NCBI GenBank assembly: GCA_001790525.1
Contig: MGCU01000029.1
Span: 3,921-45,211, forward strand
DNA from: Candidatus Saccharibacteria bacterium RIFCSPHIGHO2_12_FULL_47_16b
GTDB taxonomy: Bacteria; Patescibacteriota; Saccharimonadia; Saccharimonadales; UBA10212
DNA length: 41,291 nucleotides
Direction: 5' to 3'
The notes below the pieces were generated by a model, which was not told the origin of the DNA, did no database searches, and worked only from the letters and a program-made list of their open reading frames with translations. The position numbers were made by a program, and so were the translations under genes. Shown one piece after another: positions 12,557 through 39,008 of this stretch; the first letter of the stretch is position 1, and each line of letters starts with the position of its first letter.

Positions 12557-12559
12557 GTA

Positions 12560-12586
12560 TTAGTAAATAGGAATTAGGAATTAGCT
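12560..12586. repeat. Short heptamer array (ggaatta)
   Basis: tagtaaataggaattaggaattagc between secA and the M16 gene. Confidence 0.45.
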
Positions 12587-21546: not shown

Positions 21547-21561
21547 GCTGCCTCCGGCAGC
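21547..21561 (-). promoter_or_regulatory. SD-containing mini-hairpin GCTGCC-GGA-GGCAGC upstream of the ABC permease
   Basis: Perfect 6-bp stem, GGA loop, 5 nt from the ATG at 21541. Confidence 0.6.
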
Positions 21562-21678
21562 ATTTACCATTTGCCATTTACCATTTGCCAAATTATTAAT
21601 CATTGGCCATTTGTAAAGATATTTGGTAAATGATAAATGAAAAATTAATGTGAAATGTGAAATGTCAAATGAGAATTG
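21561..21678. repeat. Intergenic paired heptamer array (core CATTTnn)
   Basis: Left catttac|catttgc|catttac|catttgc (21561-21588); right gtaaatg|ataaatg...tgaaatg|tgaaatg|tcaaatg|agaattg (21626-21678). Confidence 0.9.
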
Positions 21679-21689
21679 GAGTGATGAAG

Positions 21690-22609: not shown

Positions 22610-24112
22610 TTAAGCTTCGAATCTTAATCGTTTAATCAACCAATCTCGTGGCAAAATTGACAAAAACCAGCCGGCCCGCGGTCCAGAAGTTTTGCCAATC
22701 AAAGCCTTATACAAAGTCTCGAATTTGGCTTTGGCATCGAGGTTAGTAAACTCCAGTTGATAGATGGCTTTATGAAACCACTCGCCGTCAGCGCTTTTTG
22801 GCGCTTTAGCTACTGCGTCCGCTAGCTTGCTTAAGAACTGCATTTCTGGCTCGCTAAAATCGGACTTCTTAACAGCCTTGGATAACTCAAATTTAATAGA
22901 CTCCGGCGCCCAGTTTTTTAGCCAGCCATCAATGTATTTAAGCTCTTTTTTAACTACCGCCTCATCAACTGGCTGCGGACTGGCTCTCTTGATAATATCA
23001 ATGGTCTTATCGATGTCTTTTAGAGCTGATTGATAGGCGGCAACCAAGTGAGAAAATGGCACATTGCTAACTACCCTTTCGAGCTTATTGAGTGATATTT
23101 GGACTAACGGCGAATCGGGCTCGGCGGCGGCCAGCCCGGCAAATTCGTCAATCAGCTGATCGATGTTTTGCTCGTCAAAATAAAGCCTCTTGCTAGGCGG
23201 AAAACGCAACATAAAATAGCGCACGACTTCTGGCGGCAGGACTTTGACTACTTCCGTGGCGCTGATGCCGGTACCGGCACTGGCGCTCATTTTTTTAGTG
23301 TCGCCAGCTCGGTTAACAAAATCATATGGCACTGGTATAGGTCCTTTTTGGCCAAAAATCTCTTTAATAATAGCTAGGCCAGTATCGAATGAACCGCCGG
23401 CCGAGGCATGGTCGCGGCCGGCCGGCTCAATGGCAATTTTAAGCAGCCACCAGCGGGCCGGCCAATCGATTCGCCAGTTTAATTTGGCTTGGCCGTGAGC
23501 GTAACTGATAGTCATAGTTTTGCCTTGAGCATCTTCGTAATCCAGCGTTTTGGCTTTTTCATCAATCGCTAAAAATTTGCGGTTTTTTAGGTAAGTTTCT
23601 TCTATGACCTGCAGCGGCGACCAATGATCATCAAGCTTATGTCCAGACACAGTTTCTAAAATCTGGCGGATCTTGGCTTCATCAGCCAGAGATTTTTCAA
23701 TAGCGGCTGTAAAAAAGCCGGCCCGATATTTTTCATGGGAGCGGATAACTTCCATCTCGACGCCCAAAACTTTGGCCGATTTTAGAAAATCGGCTAGAAA
23801 AAATTCGCCGTAAGAACTCTTCGAGCCGTCGGGCGCCGGAATATCACAAAGGGCTTGGCCTAAATATTTTTCAAATTCGGCCGGCACATTAGCCGGAATT
23901 TTACGTAGGGCATCCAAATCGTCCACGTAGTGGATATGTTTAGCTTGCCGGCCGCGGCGAATTAACTCCAGCCGAATCGCGTCGCAGGTGATAATTTCGC
24001 GTAAATGCCCAAAATGATAAGCACCCGAAGGACTGGCGCCGGATTCAATCAGCACCTCGCCTTTAGGCTGACGGGTTCCCACCTCATCAACAATCTTCGC
24101 AAGCCACTTCAT
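22610..24112 (-). CDS. lysK: Lysyl-tRNA synthetase, class I (archaeal-type)
   Basis: IESGASPSGAYHFGHLREIITCDAIRLELIRRGRQAKHIHYVDDLDALRKIP; KKMSASAGTGISATEVVKVLPPEVVRYFMLR (KMSxS). Start chosen at 24112. Confidence 0.9.
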   Translation of the reverse strand: MKWLAKIVDEVGTRQPKGEVLIESGASPSGAYHFGHLREIITCDAIRLELIRRGRQAKHIHYVDDLDALRKIPANVPAEFEKYLGQALCDIPAPDGSKSSYGEFFLADFLKSAKVLGVEMEVIRSHEKYRAGFFTAAIEKSLADEAKIRQILETVSGHKLDDHWSPLQVIEETYLKNRKFLAIDEKAKTLDYEDAQGKTMTISYAHGQAKLNWRIDWPARWWLLKIAIEPAGRDHASAGGSFDTGLAIIKEIFGQKGPIPVPYDFVNRAGDTKKMSASAGTGISATEVVKVLPPEVVRYFMLRFPPSKRLYFDEQNIDQLIDEFAGLAAAEPDSPLVQISLNKLERVVSNVPFSHLVAAYQSALKDIDKTIDIIKRASPQPVDEAVVKKELKYIDGWLKNWAPESIKFELSKAVKKSDFSEPEMQFLSKLADAVAKAPKSADGEWFHKAIYQLEFTNLDAKAKFETLYKALIGKTSGPRAGWFLSILPRDWLIKRLRFEA

Positions 24113-24116
24113 ACTA

Positions 24117-24202
24117 TTAGTAAATAGCAATTAGTAAATAGAAACTAGTATAAAATGGTCAGCATTATTACTAATTTCTAATTCCTGGTTCCTAATTTCT
24201 AG
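24117..24202. repeat. Intergenic paired heptamer array, 5+5 units in strict register (core nTAGnAA)
   Basis: Left ttagtaa|atagcaa|ttagtaa|atagaaa|ctagtat (24117-24151); right ttactaa|tttctaa|ttcctgg|ttcctaa|tttctag (24168-24202). Confidence 0.92.
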
Positions 24203-24657
24203 CTGATGTGGGTGATTTTGTAGGTAGTGGCTTCGGAGTTGGCGATAGTTACTTTGTCGCCGACTTGCTTGCCCATTAGCTCCGCGCCGATTGGTGATTC
24301 GTCGCTGATTTTACCGCGTAGAGGATCGGCCTCCATGGTGCCAACTACCTGAAACTGGGTGGTTTTGCCGCTAGCACTTTTAAGCCTTACGGTTGAACCT
24401 AGCACCACCTGCCCGTCGGTTTTGGGCTTGCGAATAATCTTAGAGTTATTCAGCACGTTTTCTAATTCCGAAATTCTGGATTCCAATCTGTCCTGTTCTT
24501 CGCGGGTGCTTTGGTATTCGGCATTTTCGCTCAAATCGCCTAGCTCGCGGGTTTGCTTAATTCGTTCAGCAATGGCCGGTCGCTGGCCAATCAATTCATT
24601 GAGCTCGGCTTTGAGCTCGTTTAAACCATCGGCAGTAAAATTGAACGTTTTTTTCAT
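24199..24657 (-). CDS. greA: Transcription elongation factor GreA
   Basis: MKKTFNFTADGLNELKAELNELIGQRPAIAERIKQTRELGDLSENAEYQSTREEQDRLESRISELENVL; an alternative GTG start at 24681 is possible. Confidence 0.96.
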   Translation of the reverse strand: MKKTFNFTADGLNELKAELNELIGQRPAIAERIKQTRELGDLSENAEYQSTREEQDRLESRISELENVLNNSKIIRKPKTDGQVVLGSTVRLKSASGKTTQFQVVGTMEADPLRGKISDESPIGAELMGKQVGDKVTIANSEATTYKITHIS

Positions 24658-25988: not shown

Positions 25989-26010
25989 TACTTGATTGTA
26001 CAACAATCAA

Positions 26011-26065
26011 GAGGTTCGAGGTTCGAGGTTCGAGATAGCTCTCCACTCTTCGCTCTCCACTCATG
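26011..26065. repeat. Intergenic heptamer array (gaggttc x3; opposed gctctcc|actcttc|gctctcc|actcatg)
   Basis: gaggttc at 26011-26031 exact; second arm 26038-26065 on a 7-nt period. Confidence 0.82.
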
Positions 26066-26852
26066 TGCTGAAATAAACGCTGAAAGCTAGGATATTGTTT
26101 AAACCATGCACCATGATTGGCGCATAAAGCGCGCCGGTTTTTTCGCGCAGATAAACCAAAACCAATGAGAGAACTAAAGTGCTAACGCCGGCCGCCCAAA
26201 GTAAGCCGTCATCGTCAGCGCCGGTTAAAAGATGGGCAGCGCCAAATAAAACGCTGGTGGTAAGACCGGCCACTACAAAACTCCAGCGGGCCCTTAAGGC
26301 GGAAAACAGGTAGCCTCTCATTAATATTTCTTCGCCGAGAGGCGGTAACACCACAAGCGCTACAAAGGCCAGAATTTTATCGGCAGTAAGCGTAACTGTC
26401 TTAAAACCAACATCTTGAGTTTGATCAACGTTATAAGACGGGAAAAGGGCCGTTAAAGAGGCGTTGACTACAACTAGAAGCACGAAGAAGGTGATAAATC
26501 CACCGACCGCCATCTTAAAATCACGGCTCTGCAGTCGCCTACCCCATCCAATATCGGTAAGATTTAATTTGCGTCTTTTCAGTAGCCACAGCACCGAGCC
26601 GATTGCCAGAAGTTCGGCAATCAAAATATAAAAGAACTGGGCAGTAGCTGAATAACCAAGTACCGAAACGGTTGGTGCGCGGCTTAGCCACACGGCTGCA
26701 AAAAGTTCAATTAAGAGAGCAGCGATTATTTGACTAAGCAGAAAGATTAACAAAGCGTTGGCAATCGCCCTAAGCGGATGCCCAAAACTCGCTTTGCTCG
26801 CTGAATTATGAATTATGAATTTAGAATCAGGAACTTTTTTTTCATTCTTCAT
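26061..26852 (-). CDS. CPBP (CAAX-type) intramembrane metalloprotease
   Basis: PPLGEEILMRGYLFSALRARWSFVVAGLTTSVLFGAAHL; multi-TM. The N-terminal ~22 aa are repeat-encoded, so the start is uncertain. Confidence 0.9.
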   Translation of the reverse strand: MKNEKKVPDSKFIIHNSASKASFGHPLRAIANALLIFLLSQIIAALLIELFAAVWLSRAPTVSVLGYSATAQFFYILIAELLAIGSVLWLLKRRKLNLTDIGWGRRLQSRDFKMAVGGFITFFVLLVVVNASLTALFPSYNVDQTQDVGFKTVTLTADKILAFVALVVLPPLGEEILMRGYLFSALRARWSFVVAGLTTSVLFGAAHLLTGADDDGLLWAAGVSTLVLSLVLVYLREKTGALYAPIMVHGLNNILAFSVYFST

Positions 26853-26868
26853 TCTTTATTCGCCATTC
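26803..26868. repeat. Paired heptamer array (core GAATnnn) over the 5' end of the CPBP protease gene
   Basis: Left gaattat|gaattat|gaattta|gaatcag (26803-26830); right ttcattc|ttcattc|tttattc|gccattc (26841-26868). Confidence 0.92.
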
Positions 26869-26877
26869 TGGTTTTTG

Positions 26878-28056: not shown

Positions 28057-28069
28057 ACAGCTAAGTATA

Positions 28070-28147
28070 GAGGGTCGAGGGTCGAGGGTCGAGGGTCGAG
28101 GGTCGAGGGTCGAAACTATACCCTACACCCTATCCCCTAGACCCTAA
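28070..28147. repeat. Paired heptamer array: six exact GAGGGTC units opposed by degenerate ACCCTAN units
   Basis: gagggtc x6 at 28070-28111; accctac|accctat|cccctag|accctaa at 28120-28147. Confidence 0.95.
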
Positions 28148-31924: not shown

Positions 31925-31930
31925 GATGCA

Positions 31931-32021
31931 TTTTACCTTTTACCATTAGCCGTTTACCATAGAAAACGGAAAACGGATCATGGAGAACGCAATGAAAACG
32001 GAAAACGGAAAACGGAAAACG
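31931..32021. repeat. Heptamer array (GAAAACG) over the 5' end of the P-loop kinase gene, with an opposed arm
   Basis: ttttacc|ttttacc|attagcc|gtttacc (31931-31958); gaaaacg x2 (31962-31975); gaaaacg x4 (31994-32021). Confidence 0.92.
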
Positions 32022-32534
32022 GTCGGAAGGTACTTGATTACCGGTGTGGCCGGCAGCGGCAAATCGACTATTGCCTACGAGTTAAGCCGGCGCGGTTATG
32101 CGGCCTATGATACCGATGCCGGCTTCAGTTATTACGCCAATAAACAGACCGGCCAAAAAGTGACCCGCCCGCTGCATCCAACTTTGGAATGGTACGACAA
32201 GCACGAGCGGGTGTTTGATGAAAAAGTACTGCAAAACCTATTCAAAAAGCATCAGGACGAAGATTTATTGATTTGTTCTATAACGGCCAATCAAAAGAAA
32301 TACTACCCACAGTTCGACAAAATTTTTCTACTGACGGCTGACGATGAACTACTGGCCCATCGACTGCAAACCCGGACAACCAGCCATTTTGGCAAACATC
32401 CGGTTGATTTCCACCGTGTTTTTGCCGGTAAACAAGCCTGGGAAAATGAAGTCCGAGCCGCCGGCGCTTTCGAAATCGATTCCTCAAAACCAATTAAAAA
32501 GGTTGTTGATCAGATTCTTAAACAACTTAAATGA
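31980..32534 (+). CDS. P-loop nucleoside/shikimate-type kinase-like ATPase
   Basis: GRYLITGVAGSGKSTIAYELSRRGYAAYDTDAGF; the N-terminal MENAMKTENGKRKTV is repeat-encoded; stop overlaps the prmC ATG. Confidence 0.82.
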   Translation: MENAMKTENGKRKTVGRYLITGVAGSGKSTIAYELSRRGYAAYDTDAGFSYYANKQTGQKVTRPLHPTLEWYDKHERVFDEKVLQNLFKKHQDEDLLICSITANQKKYYPQFDKIFLLTADDELLAHRLQTRTTSHFGKHPVDFHRVFAGKQAWENEVRAAGAFEIDSSKPIKKVVDQILKQLK

Positions 32535-33364
32535 CAATTAAAGGCTGGCTAGCCCAAGCCGAGGCTAAGCTTAAGCTGGCTGATATTGGTACAGCACGGC
32601 TTGATGTTCTGATATTGCTGGAAGACGAAACCGGCAAGGACCGATCCTGGTTACTGGCCCACCCCGAAACTGTCTTACAAGGACCGTCCTTGAAGAGGTT
32701 GGATAAAAAAATTAAGCGGCGGGCTAAGCATGAGCCGCTGGCTTATATTCGTGGTTTTACGGAATTCTATGGTCGAAAATTCAAAGTCAACAAGCACGTT
32801 TTAGAACCCCGTCCCGAATCGGAAACGATGGTCGAGCTATTGCTCGACCTAGTAGACAGTAGACAGCAGGCAGTAGACAGTAGTTTACAGATTGTGGATG
32901 TGGGGACTGGGAGTGGGGCCTTGGCCATTACAACCAAGCTGGAGATTTCGGAGGCTGAAGTCATTGCCACTGACATTGATCCAAACTGTTTGGCGGTTGC
33001 CCATCAAAACGCTAAAGACCACGGCGTCAAAATCAAATTCCTCCAAGGCAACCTTTTCGTACCCCTCTACTCCCTACTCACTACACCCTACACCCTAATT
33101 TGCAACCTGCCTTATGTGCCTGATAAATGGCGAATTAATAAGGCCGCGGCGCGCGAGCCGAAAAAGGCTATTTTCGGCGGTCCTGACGGCCTTGACATTT
33201 ACCGCCGGCTTTTTGAACAACTCTCCAAAACGCCACAAAAAGCGGATTTCATACTTACTGAATCACTGCCGCCACAGCACGAAAAACTCGTCAAAATCGC
33301 TAAATCAACCGGCTATAAACTAAAACAAAACTCAGATCTAGTTCAATTATTTGAGCTGCTCTAG
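32531..33364 (+). CDS. prmC: Peptide chain release factor N5-glutamine methyltransferase
   Basis: EPLAYIRGFTEFYGRKFKVNKHVLEPRPESETMVELLLDL, IVDVGTGSGALAITTKLE, CNLPYVPD; downstream of prfA. Confidence 0.93.
   Translation: MTIKGWLAQAEAKLKLADIGTARLDVLILLEDETGKDRSWLLAHPETVLQGPSLKRLDKKIKRRAKHEPLAYIRGFTEFYGRKFKVNKHVLEPRPESETMVELLLDLVDSRQQAVDSSLQIVDVGTGSGALAITTKLEISEAEVIATDIDPNCLAVAHQNAKDHGVKIKFLQGNLFVPLYSLLTTPYTLICNLPYVPDKWRINKAAAREPKKAIFGGPDGLDIYRRLFEQLSKTPQKADFILTESLPPQHEKLVKIAKSTGYKLKQNSDLVQLFELL
32851..32885. repeat. Intragenic heptamer array (AGTAGAC) in prmC
   Basis: agtagac|agtagac|agcaggc|agtagac|agtagtt, encoding VDSRQQAVDSS. Confidence 0.9.
33068..33095. repeat. Second intragenic heptamer array (TACACCC) in prmC
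   Basis: tactccc|tactcac|tacaccc|tacaccc, encoding YSLLTTPYT just before the NLPY motif. Confidence 0.85.
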
Positions 33365-34657: not shown

Positions 34658-34728
34658 TTGTTCTTTCCTTTGACTACCTGAAAATTATACCAACCCCAAG
34701 AACCAATTATTTCAGCCCTCAAGTTCCT

Positions 34729-34770
34729 TGCTCTTTGCTCTTTGCTCTTTGTTCTTTGTTCATTGTTCTT
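34729..34770. repeat. Heptamer array (TGCTCTT/TGTTCTT), single arm, flush with a stop codon
   Basis: tgctctt x3|tgttctt|tgttcat|tgttctt; directly followed by the stop codon of 34770..35522. Confidence 0.93.
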
Positions 34771-35522
34771 TATATCGTTGTGCCCGACCAATCGGATAAG
34801 ACTATAACAATAACCAAAATGGCCACCATTAAAGCCAGCGCCTGTTTTTCAAACGACGACGTCAGCCTTTCGGTGGCGTCCATGTAGTATAGGGCGGCAA
34901 TACCATAACCAATTGTCGTTAAGATAATGATTATTTGAGCAACCAATCCGTAAAACAGCAGCCAGTGCCCAAGCACGAAAGCCAGTCCTGCCGAAAAATA
35001 GGCCCAAACATGCGCTAGCAGCGGCGCATGCGGCTCATCAAAACTGGTTAGATAATGGCGGGCGGCTAAATAGGTAATTACCCAGGTACCTGCCATTAGT
35101 AATAAGGTTGAGGCATCGCCGAACTTTAAGTATAAAACTGCCAAGCCAAGCAGTTGGCCGAACATGGCTTGGGCAGCAACATACAACACACCACTACGCG
35201 GTTTTAACCAGGTTAACCAAGCAATGTAAGCCAACATCCAAAAAAGCTGCCACCATTTGACGCTGGTAGTAGACATAAAAATTACAAACGAAATGCCGGC
35301 AATGGTATCTATGCCATTGGCTATAAAATTAGCCATCCAGTAGCGCGGCTTGACTGCCACAATCCGCCATTTGGCGATTAGAACCAGCAAGATAGCTAGC
35401 CCAACAAAATCAATCCGAACTAAAATGTAGGCAATAATTGGCAGAGCGGCAACTAGGGCCAGATGAATCGGGTGTGAGAAGCCGCGGATGGGCTTTATTT
35501 TATCGAGAAGAGCCGTTAGCAT
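34770..35522 (-). CDS. Hypothetical multi-TM membrane protein
   Basis: 250 aa with repeated hydrophobic helices; no family recognised. Confidence 0.7.
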   Translation of the reverse strand: MLTALLDKIKPIRGFSHPIHLALVAALPIIAYILVRIDFVGLAILLVLIAKWRIVAVKPRYWMANFIANGIDTIAGISFVIFMSTTSVKWWQLFWMLAYIAWLTWLKPRSGVLYVAAQAMFGQLLGLAVLYLKFGDASTLLLMAGTWVITYLAARHYLTSFDEPHAPLLAHVWAYFSAGLAFVLGHWLLFYGLVAQIIIILTTIGYGIAALYYMDATERLTSSFEKQALALMVAILVIVIVLSDWSGTTI

Positions 35523-38846: not shown

Positions 38847-38850
38847 ATTA

Positions 38851-38864
38851 TTACCTCCTGGCAA
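38851..38864 (-). promoter_or_regulatory. SD-containing mini-hairpin TTGCC-AGGA-GGTAA upstream of parB
   Basis: 5-bp stem including one G:U pair; loop is the SD core. Confidence 0.45.
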
Positions 38865-38865
38865 G

Positions 38866-38990
38866 CAATTTTCATTTTACAATTTTCATTTTTCAATAAA
38901 TTTTCAATTAACAATTTATAATTATTGATGAGTTTGTGAACTGTAAACTGTAAACGCACTCTAAACGGTAAACTGTAAACTGTAAAATTG
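38866..38990. repeat. Intergenic degenerate heptamer array with opposed arms (CAATTTT...; TGTAAAC)
   Basis: Left caattttcattttacaattttcattttt...; right tgtaaac|tgtaaac...taaacgg|taaactg|taaactg|taaaatt. Confidence 0.85.
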
Positions 38991-39008
38991 ATCGACGAAA
39001 CCATAAGC

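Follow-up and report, generated by a model that had tools for sequence, protein, structure and literature searches.

Heptamer-repeat hairpins between genes of a Saccharibacteria genome: the greA-lysK array as a probable resident copy of a dispersed element

The heptamer array in the greA-lysK gap

The window analysed here is a stretch of 41,291 nt from Candidatus Saccharibacteria bacterium RIFCSPHIGHO2_12_FULL_47_16b (contig MGCU01000029.1). It corresponds to C29:3921-45211 of a draft genome of 793,886 bases in 29 contigs, hereafter G000, on which genes were called by a home-made caller with some starts wrong. In this window greA and lysK are read in the same direction, and the gap between them is occupied by two arms of five heptamers each (Table 1). 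The nearest named relatives of greA were at 59% (a bacterium) and 49% (Saccharibacteria), which points to a CPR host that probably lies close to Saccharimonadia. An earlier note, made from the sequence alone, had described the arms unit by unit, and our analysis agreed with it: the left units were TTAGTAA, ATAGCAA, TTAGTAA, ATAGAAA and CTAGTAT, and the right units, in reverse complement, CTAGAAA, TTAGGAA, CCAGGAA, TTAGAAA and TTAGTAA. Folded in register, 25 of the 35 positions formed Watson-Crick pairs as it had stated, with three additional G-U pairs, whereas arms shifted by 1-3 bases gave 5-13 pairs only. Positions 1 and 5 of the heptamer were free to vary, as had also been noted; positions 2 and 7 changed once each while 3, 4 and 6 were constant. 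The two-window lag-7 score of the array was 39 of 56, compared with 20.0±3.3 and a maximum of 30 in 3000 dinucleotide shuffles. The array fills the gap completely, the TAG stop codon of greA lying within the last right-hand unit and the lysK start (24112) four bases from the first unit. However, it could not be called the best-registered array, being surpassed within the window by 6.3 perfect GAGGGTC copies at 28070-28113, where the segment 28057-28148 folded clearly with 5-bp cores separated by 2x2 mismatches. In fact, with 21 lag-7 segments in the window and 306 non-coding ones genome-wide, the greA-lysK array was nothing exceptional for its genome.

Table 1. Positions of the genes, repeats and transposase genes discussed (window coordinates unless a contig is given)
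Feature	Position	Strand	Remarks
lysK, class I lysyl-tRNA synthetase	22610..24112	-	PF01921 3.7e-96
greA, transcription elongation factor	24199..24657	-	PF03449 1.9e-23, PF01272 4.8e-20
lysK-proximal arm, five heptamers	24117..24151	-	3' arm of the greA->lysK transcript
Inter-arm loop	24152..24167	-	
greA-proximal arm, five heptamers	24168..24202	-	includes greA stop codon
43-nt conserved island up to lysK start codon	24110..24152	-	same in G006, 2 substitutions in G015
Heptamer hairpin ahead of start codon	9187..9325	-	terminal mini-hairpin GGCCGGAGGCC
Half array, TAG family	12559..12584	-	C29_16476, in cluster of 8
CATTTAC/AATGTGA paired arms	21554..21682	-	
GAGGTTC/CTCTCCA arrays	25999..26062	-	
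TGAATTA/TTCATTC paired arms	26799..26869	-	
GAGGGTC x 6.3 vs TAGGGTN paired arms	28059..28147	-	
GAAAACG/TTTACC arrays	31925..32033	+	
TTTGCTC/TTTGTTC array	34716..34778	-	
GTAAACT/AATTTTC paired arms	38847..39008	-	
RAYT-like Y1 transposase gene, own flanking palindromes	C26:1504-1743		
RAYT-like Y1 transposase gene, own flanking palindromes	C2:6805-7026		
RAYT-like Y1 transposase gene, own flanking palindromes	C25:24830-25060		

The earlier note had proposed to look for the 7-nt periodicity in the same gap of relatives, and the outcome was divided. TAG-type hairpins were found in G006 and G015 as in G000, and the gaps of G001, G002, G003, G010 and G012 had period-7 or heptamer-like sequence of other kinds, so that such blocks occurred in seven relatives, though some were called by eye only and the unit was often different. 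In contrast, G004, G007, G009 and G011 had short unique spacers.

Period 7, arm matching and end modules in the genome

At lag 7 the window contained 21 segments of >68% identity, and the remaining lags between 3 and 14 gave 0-3 each. The genome followed the same pattern: lag 7 gave 306 non-coding segments and lag 8 gave 8, and no other period was enriched; lag-7 segments in coding sequence numbered 38. Arrays were found in 130 of the 373 gaps of 60-500 nt (about a third), 82 of which held two or more. G000 has at least 130 hairpin-like heptamer elements between its genes, the greA-lysK repeat among them. Their frequency differed between gap types: 39% of co-directional gaps (108/279), 28% of divergent gaps (17/61) and 15% of convergent gaps (5/33) held arrays (co-directional versus convergent, p=0.007), indicating a feature tied to the 5' sides of genes and not a terminator. 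Hairpins in intergenic gaps might be taken for intrinsic terminators between genes. However, these hairpins were depleted precisely at convergent gaps and were commonest in co-directional runs, including rpoB-rpoC-rpsL-rpsG and rplV-rpsC, and instead of a G+C-rich stem with a U-run their stems were AU-rich and mismatched, which makes the terminator explanation extremely improbable. One further pair of arms was seen inside a gene: the prmC coding sequence holds two complementary period-7 arms (window 32846-32887 and 33060-33102), 170 nt apart and in frame, which flank the methyltransferase motif I region and apparently lie in tolerant linkers.

The unit varied from gap to gap, yet both arms of one gap matched each other. 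For 61 gaps the arm duplex energies summed to -939 kcal/mol, compared with -578±48 kcal/mol with permuted partners, and none of 20,000 permutations was as low. An all-against-all comparison of the 130 elements gave clusters of 42, 30, 8, 5, 3 and 3 together with smaller ones; with at least six clusters of different units, G000 does not have one characteristic unit per genome. The greA-lysK element belonged to the cluster of 8, with arms AATTAGN / CTANTTNC. End modules were common to different families. On the left a mini-palindrome ATGACTNCGTCATT was found, or ATGCTRCGCATTAAG in the TAG family, and some left ends contained CTACGTC, the body consisting of heptamer arms. On the right was the tail GCGACYGNARGGAGYG; 54 of the 75 distinct motifs were followed at 1-4 nt by a start codon, and the tail motif was present in 20 of 98 element gaps compared with none of 215 control gaps (p=2e-11). 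Some elements ended in perfect locus-specific Shine-Dalgarno hairpins (AAAGCCGGAGGCTTT, GTCTCCGGAGGAGAC, GATTTTTCCGGAGGAAAAATC). The greA-lysK copy has neither the left mini-palindrome nor the Shine-Dalgarno tail, and its membership therefore rests on its arm sequence and its clustering. Two elements (C26:31157-31281 and C26:32793-32911) were chimeric, with left and right arms from different unit families and the common tail kept. In addition, a hairpin pair GGTCCGACC...GGTCGGACC was nested in a heptamer element both in the rpsL-rpsG gap of G012 (L268) and at C26:3945-4118 of G000; its sequence was nearly the same in the two genomes and resembles palindromes by some RAYT genes.

The matched arms could be RNA structures under selection, acting as attenuator, as stability element or as thermosensor; alternatively, a protein could bind them as arrayed sites with a 5-of-7 core. 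A structured RNA specific to the locus had been implied by the earlier note, an implication that holds in part. The matching within a gap agrees with this, as does the invariance of the core positions in both arms; furthermore, the Shine-Dalgarno mini-hairpins had locus-specific complementary stems, stems of at least 5 being found in 22% of cases versus 8% of Shine-Dalgarno genes without arrays. However, RNAalifold gave no support for covariation in 14 TAG-family elements (covariation term +0.47), and two variable pairs each tolerated C-A mismatches in 3 of these elements, so that selection on a base-paired RNA is a conjecture. The chimeric arm pairs (C26:31157, C26:32793) and the wholesale replacement of units between sister species also argue against it, and we regard selected structures or protein sites as an unlikely explanation. 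A search of the window against Rfam gave no match at E<=1.

Similar heptamers have been described elsewhere, and over-represented intergenic tandem heptamers of the kind described by Mrazek, Rehm and MacGregor were found in G000 at lag 7 only. Rehm et al. (2015, PMC4692102) describe heterogeneous intergenic heptamer arrays, (GGGANTN)n, in Xanthomonas (GGGAATC) and Nostoc (GGGGAYT), with 70-75 convergent inverted heptamer pairs per genome in Xanthomonas. They resemble the elements of G000 in being intergenic arrays with variable positions inside the unit and with inverted pairs. However, they comprise one G-rich unit per genome with the focus on G-quadruplexes, whereas G000 has several unit families, and the excerpt consulted describes neither the Shine-Dalgarno-tailed families nor the stop-start insertion sites seen in G000. 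In Beggiatoaceae, TAACTGA direct repeats lie just upstream of start codons, including those in ribosomal protein operons, and a translational role was suggested for them (MacGregor, 2015, PMC4679880). Heptamer arrays ahead of start codons, ribosomal protein operons included, are shared with G000; unlike G000, Beggiatoaceae have one unit in direct arrays (with one indirect repeat), and no inverted arms or insertion polarity. The G000 elements unite traits of these heptamer repeats and of REP/REPIN sequences, but they differ in having several units per genome, in sharing a Shine-Dalgarno tail and in having split stop-start overlaps time and again. In the open-licence literature we found no description of such elements in Saccharibacteria or other CPR.

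Stop-start junctions, distribution and the search for a mobiliser

We compared 244 syntenic co-directional junctions between G000 and G001, a genome of the same genus. Arrays were present only in G000 at 62, only in G001 at 7, in both at 20 and in neither at 155. In the filtered set of 57 junctions with arrays only in G000, the median net gain was 105 nt; the G001 gap was at most 20 nt in 21 of them and the genes overlapped in 9. At many such junctions G001 had a long but different spacer (median 108 nt), so not all of them were clean empty sites.

The direction of change could be read at two junctions, rplV-rpsC and rpsL-rpsG, which were compared in up to 20 genomes. Of the 19 genomes readable at rplV-rpsC, 14 had a one-base TRATG overlap there, with all outgroup families read represented among them. 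At the same place heptamer blocks were found in G000 (CTAAATT/TTAGAGT type), G006 (TAG type), and G010 and G012 (ACAGGTT type), their tails being GCGACYGNNAGGAGYG or close to it and followed by the start codon, and G005 had an unrelated insert. Likewise, rpsL-rpsG was TAATG or nearly so in most genomes, with TAG-type elements in G000 and G006 and a CAAACTT-type element in G012. The hairpins at both junctions usually ended in GCGACYGNARGGAGYG and the start codon, that is, with a Shine-Dalgarno site of their own; rpoB-rpoC and rpoC-rpsL in G000 also held elements. Since the overlap occurred in most genomes and in the outgroups and the blocks in few, the ancestral state is the overlap, and in these operons of essential genes one junction was split repeatedly, by different units. 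The comparisons with G001 and with the outgroups thus show blocks of this kind to be insertions.

These data bear on whether anything moves at all. Pure replication slippage would create the arrays in place, with the inverted partner made by template switching. Among long simple repeats, heptamers are in many bacteria the most frequent, and slippage over a 7-nt polymerase footprint was proposed for them (Mrazek, 2007, as cited by MacGregor, PMC4679880). The complete change of unit at orthologous gaps fits such an origin, and so does the position of the prmC pair in variable linkers. However, whole blocks of about 100 nt with common tails stand at overlaps of 1 nt in most relatives, where there was no spacer, families recur, and a 44-nt left end plus arm was identical at non-orthologous loci of G000 (C10) and G015. 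Slippage on its own is disfavoured and, to our judgement, improbable.

We consider it likely that a dispersed non-coding insertion element, which settles at stop-start junctions, left the greA-lysK array as an old resident copy. The body of this putative element would be an inverted pair of heptamer arrays. Its left end would often be the mini-palindrome ATGACTNCGTCATT or ATGCTRCGCATTAAG, and its right end often a Shine-Dalgarno sequence within or beside a small hairpin (GCGACYGNARGGAGYG or NNNNCCGGAGGNNNN), after which the start codon would usually follow at a distance of one to four bases. Copies would settle between co-directional genes, where the upstream gene retains a stop and the downstream gene would gain a new ribosome-binding site, TRATG coupling giving way to independent initiation; the heptamers would turn over fast within copies while the arms remain matched. 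A broader proposal, that these are a mobile non-coding class specialised for TRATG overlaps, including those in essential ribosomal and RNA-polymerase operons, with its own 3' ribosome-binding site, freely evolving self-complementary arms and spread by an enzyme, is put forward only tentatively and may well not hold.

MITEs are short non-autonomous inverted-repeat insertions, and the elements resemble them in these respects; as with MITEs, they were present in multiple copies and present or absent at orthologous sites. Unlike MITEs, they showed no target-site duplication and no parent transposase among the families searched (Y1_Tnp, DDE_Tnp_1 and rve), and they bring a ribosome-binding site at their 3' end. 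Single loci had suggested a target-site duplication of TRAT(G), which we rejected when left-side counts showed no enrichment (T after the stop in 26% of element gaps versus 30% of controls). On the right side, TRRTG was kept in 30% of element gaps versus 12% of controls.

REP and REPIN sequences are palindromes of 20-40 bp with GTAG/CGTC tags that occur mostly 3' of genes and also in convergent gaps (Di Nocera, 2013, PMC3733652). Like them, the G000 elements are dispersed, non-autonomous, palindromic, placed between co-directional genes and possibly transcribed (PMC3733652, PMC3116915). They could accordingly be miniature elements mobilised by Y1 (HUH) transposases: hairpins sit in short intergenic gaps, GGAG is present in the tail, and RAYT-like single-copy Y1 genes were found in six genomes (three in G000, and in G001, G002, G006, G010 and G012), one of which, on C26, was flanked on both sides by CGGTTAx heptamers. 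However, the elements have heptamer arms and sit 5' of genes, and no RAYT gene was flanked by the same repeats; the RAYT genes had palindromes of their own, of types CCAAGGAGCCTCCTTGG, CAAGGACCGTCCTTG and GGGTCGTACCC, differing from the element ends. No Y1_Tnp match was found in G015, an array-rich genome of 89% completeness, while G004 had two Y1 genes and yet no period-7 segment in 16 kb of its ribosomal region. RAYT was rejected as the general mobiliser, and a REPIN-type origin seems quite improbable. Other candidates were also sought. DDE_Tnp_1 and rve were absent from the array-rich genomes of the window's family (G000, G001, G006, G012 and G015) and reverse transcriptase (PF00078) from G000, G001, G006 and G012. 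Among Y1_Tnp, DDE_Tnp_1 and rve, no transposase could be tied to the element ends. Nor did we recognise a long autonomous element with the two end motifs at its borders: most of the distant left-end matches were fortuitous hits in coding sequence or belonged to elements whose tails had degenerated.

Several genera of the window's family (f1) were dense in period 7; samples from most other families of the order had little or none of it. With R1, a covariance model built on the TAG family, many matches were obtained in G000, G001, G006, G012, G015 and G029 (family f15) and some in G035; since a palindromic element is counted on both strands, the true copy numbers are about half of these. With matches extending to G029 and G035, the distribution is patchy. 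G015 was very array-rich, with several near-identical copies within one 20-kb region. Separately, a Bacillota MAG (L128, WQSV01000060.1) had seven period-7 segments in 4.7 kb with paired arms TTGAATA/CATATTC, which are arrays of the same kind in an unrelated phylum.

The conserved island at lysK and its meaning

The earlier note was right about the register, about which two positions vary and about the gap being filled. It did not foresee the genome-wide dispersed insertions or a conserved arm of 43 nt, the island TATACTAGTTTCTATTTACTAATTNCTATTTACTARTAGTATG that reaches the lysK start codon (Table 1). G000, G006 and G015 represent three genera, in which the four-fold sites of greA and lysK were 37-54% identical, near saturation. 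Between G000 and G006, however, 47 nt were identical at the island, with both coding flanks at background identity. With up to 3 mismatches, the TATACTAGTTTCTATTTACTAATTNCTATTTACTARTAGTATG motif was found in 295 genomes of the order nowhere beyond the lysK starts of these three, and viral contigs gave no exact match to the conserved lysK-proximal arm. Horizontal transfer of a larger greA-lysK tract was unsupported, the flanking 30-nt windows being at background, though the identity may come from a very small conversion tract.

A TATACT sequence resembling a -10 box lies within the island at the border of arm and loop (24147-24152, minus strand). In G001, G002, G003, G004, G007 and G011 (loci L045, L050, L051, L046, L053 and L055, respectively), the last base of a TATAAT/TATACT-like box stands 6-7 nt upstream of the lysK ATG. 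Together with the TATACT of the island, these boxes suggest a promoter near the lysK start, and their distance from the ATG in the relatives is consistent with leaderless lysK transcripts there. Since the lysK-proximal arm and its TATACT are almost unchanged in three genera, the island is most likely a retained part of the lysK promoter or leader, as judged from sequence comparison.

The reduced genomes of CPR bacteria are regarded as streamlined, their genes being coupled and overlapping. Here, short insertions have time and again remodelled core-operon junctions, adding leader sequence and new Shine-Dalgarno sites. This provides a ready-made set in which one operon occurs both with its genes coupled in translation and with them uncoupled, and a route to asking why period 7 recurs in unrelated bacteria. 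The lysK start is a concrete case, in which one arm of a probable element is now strongly conserved.
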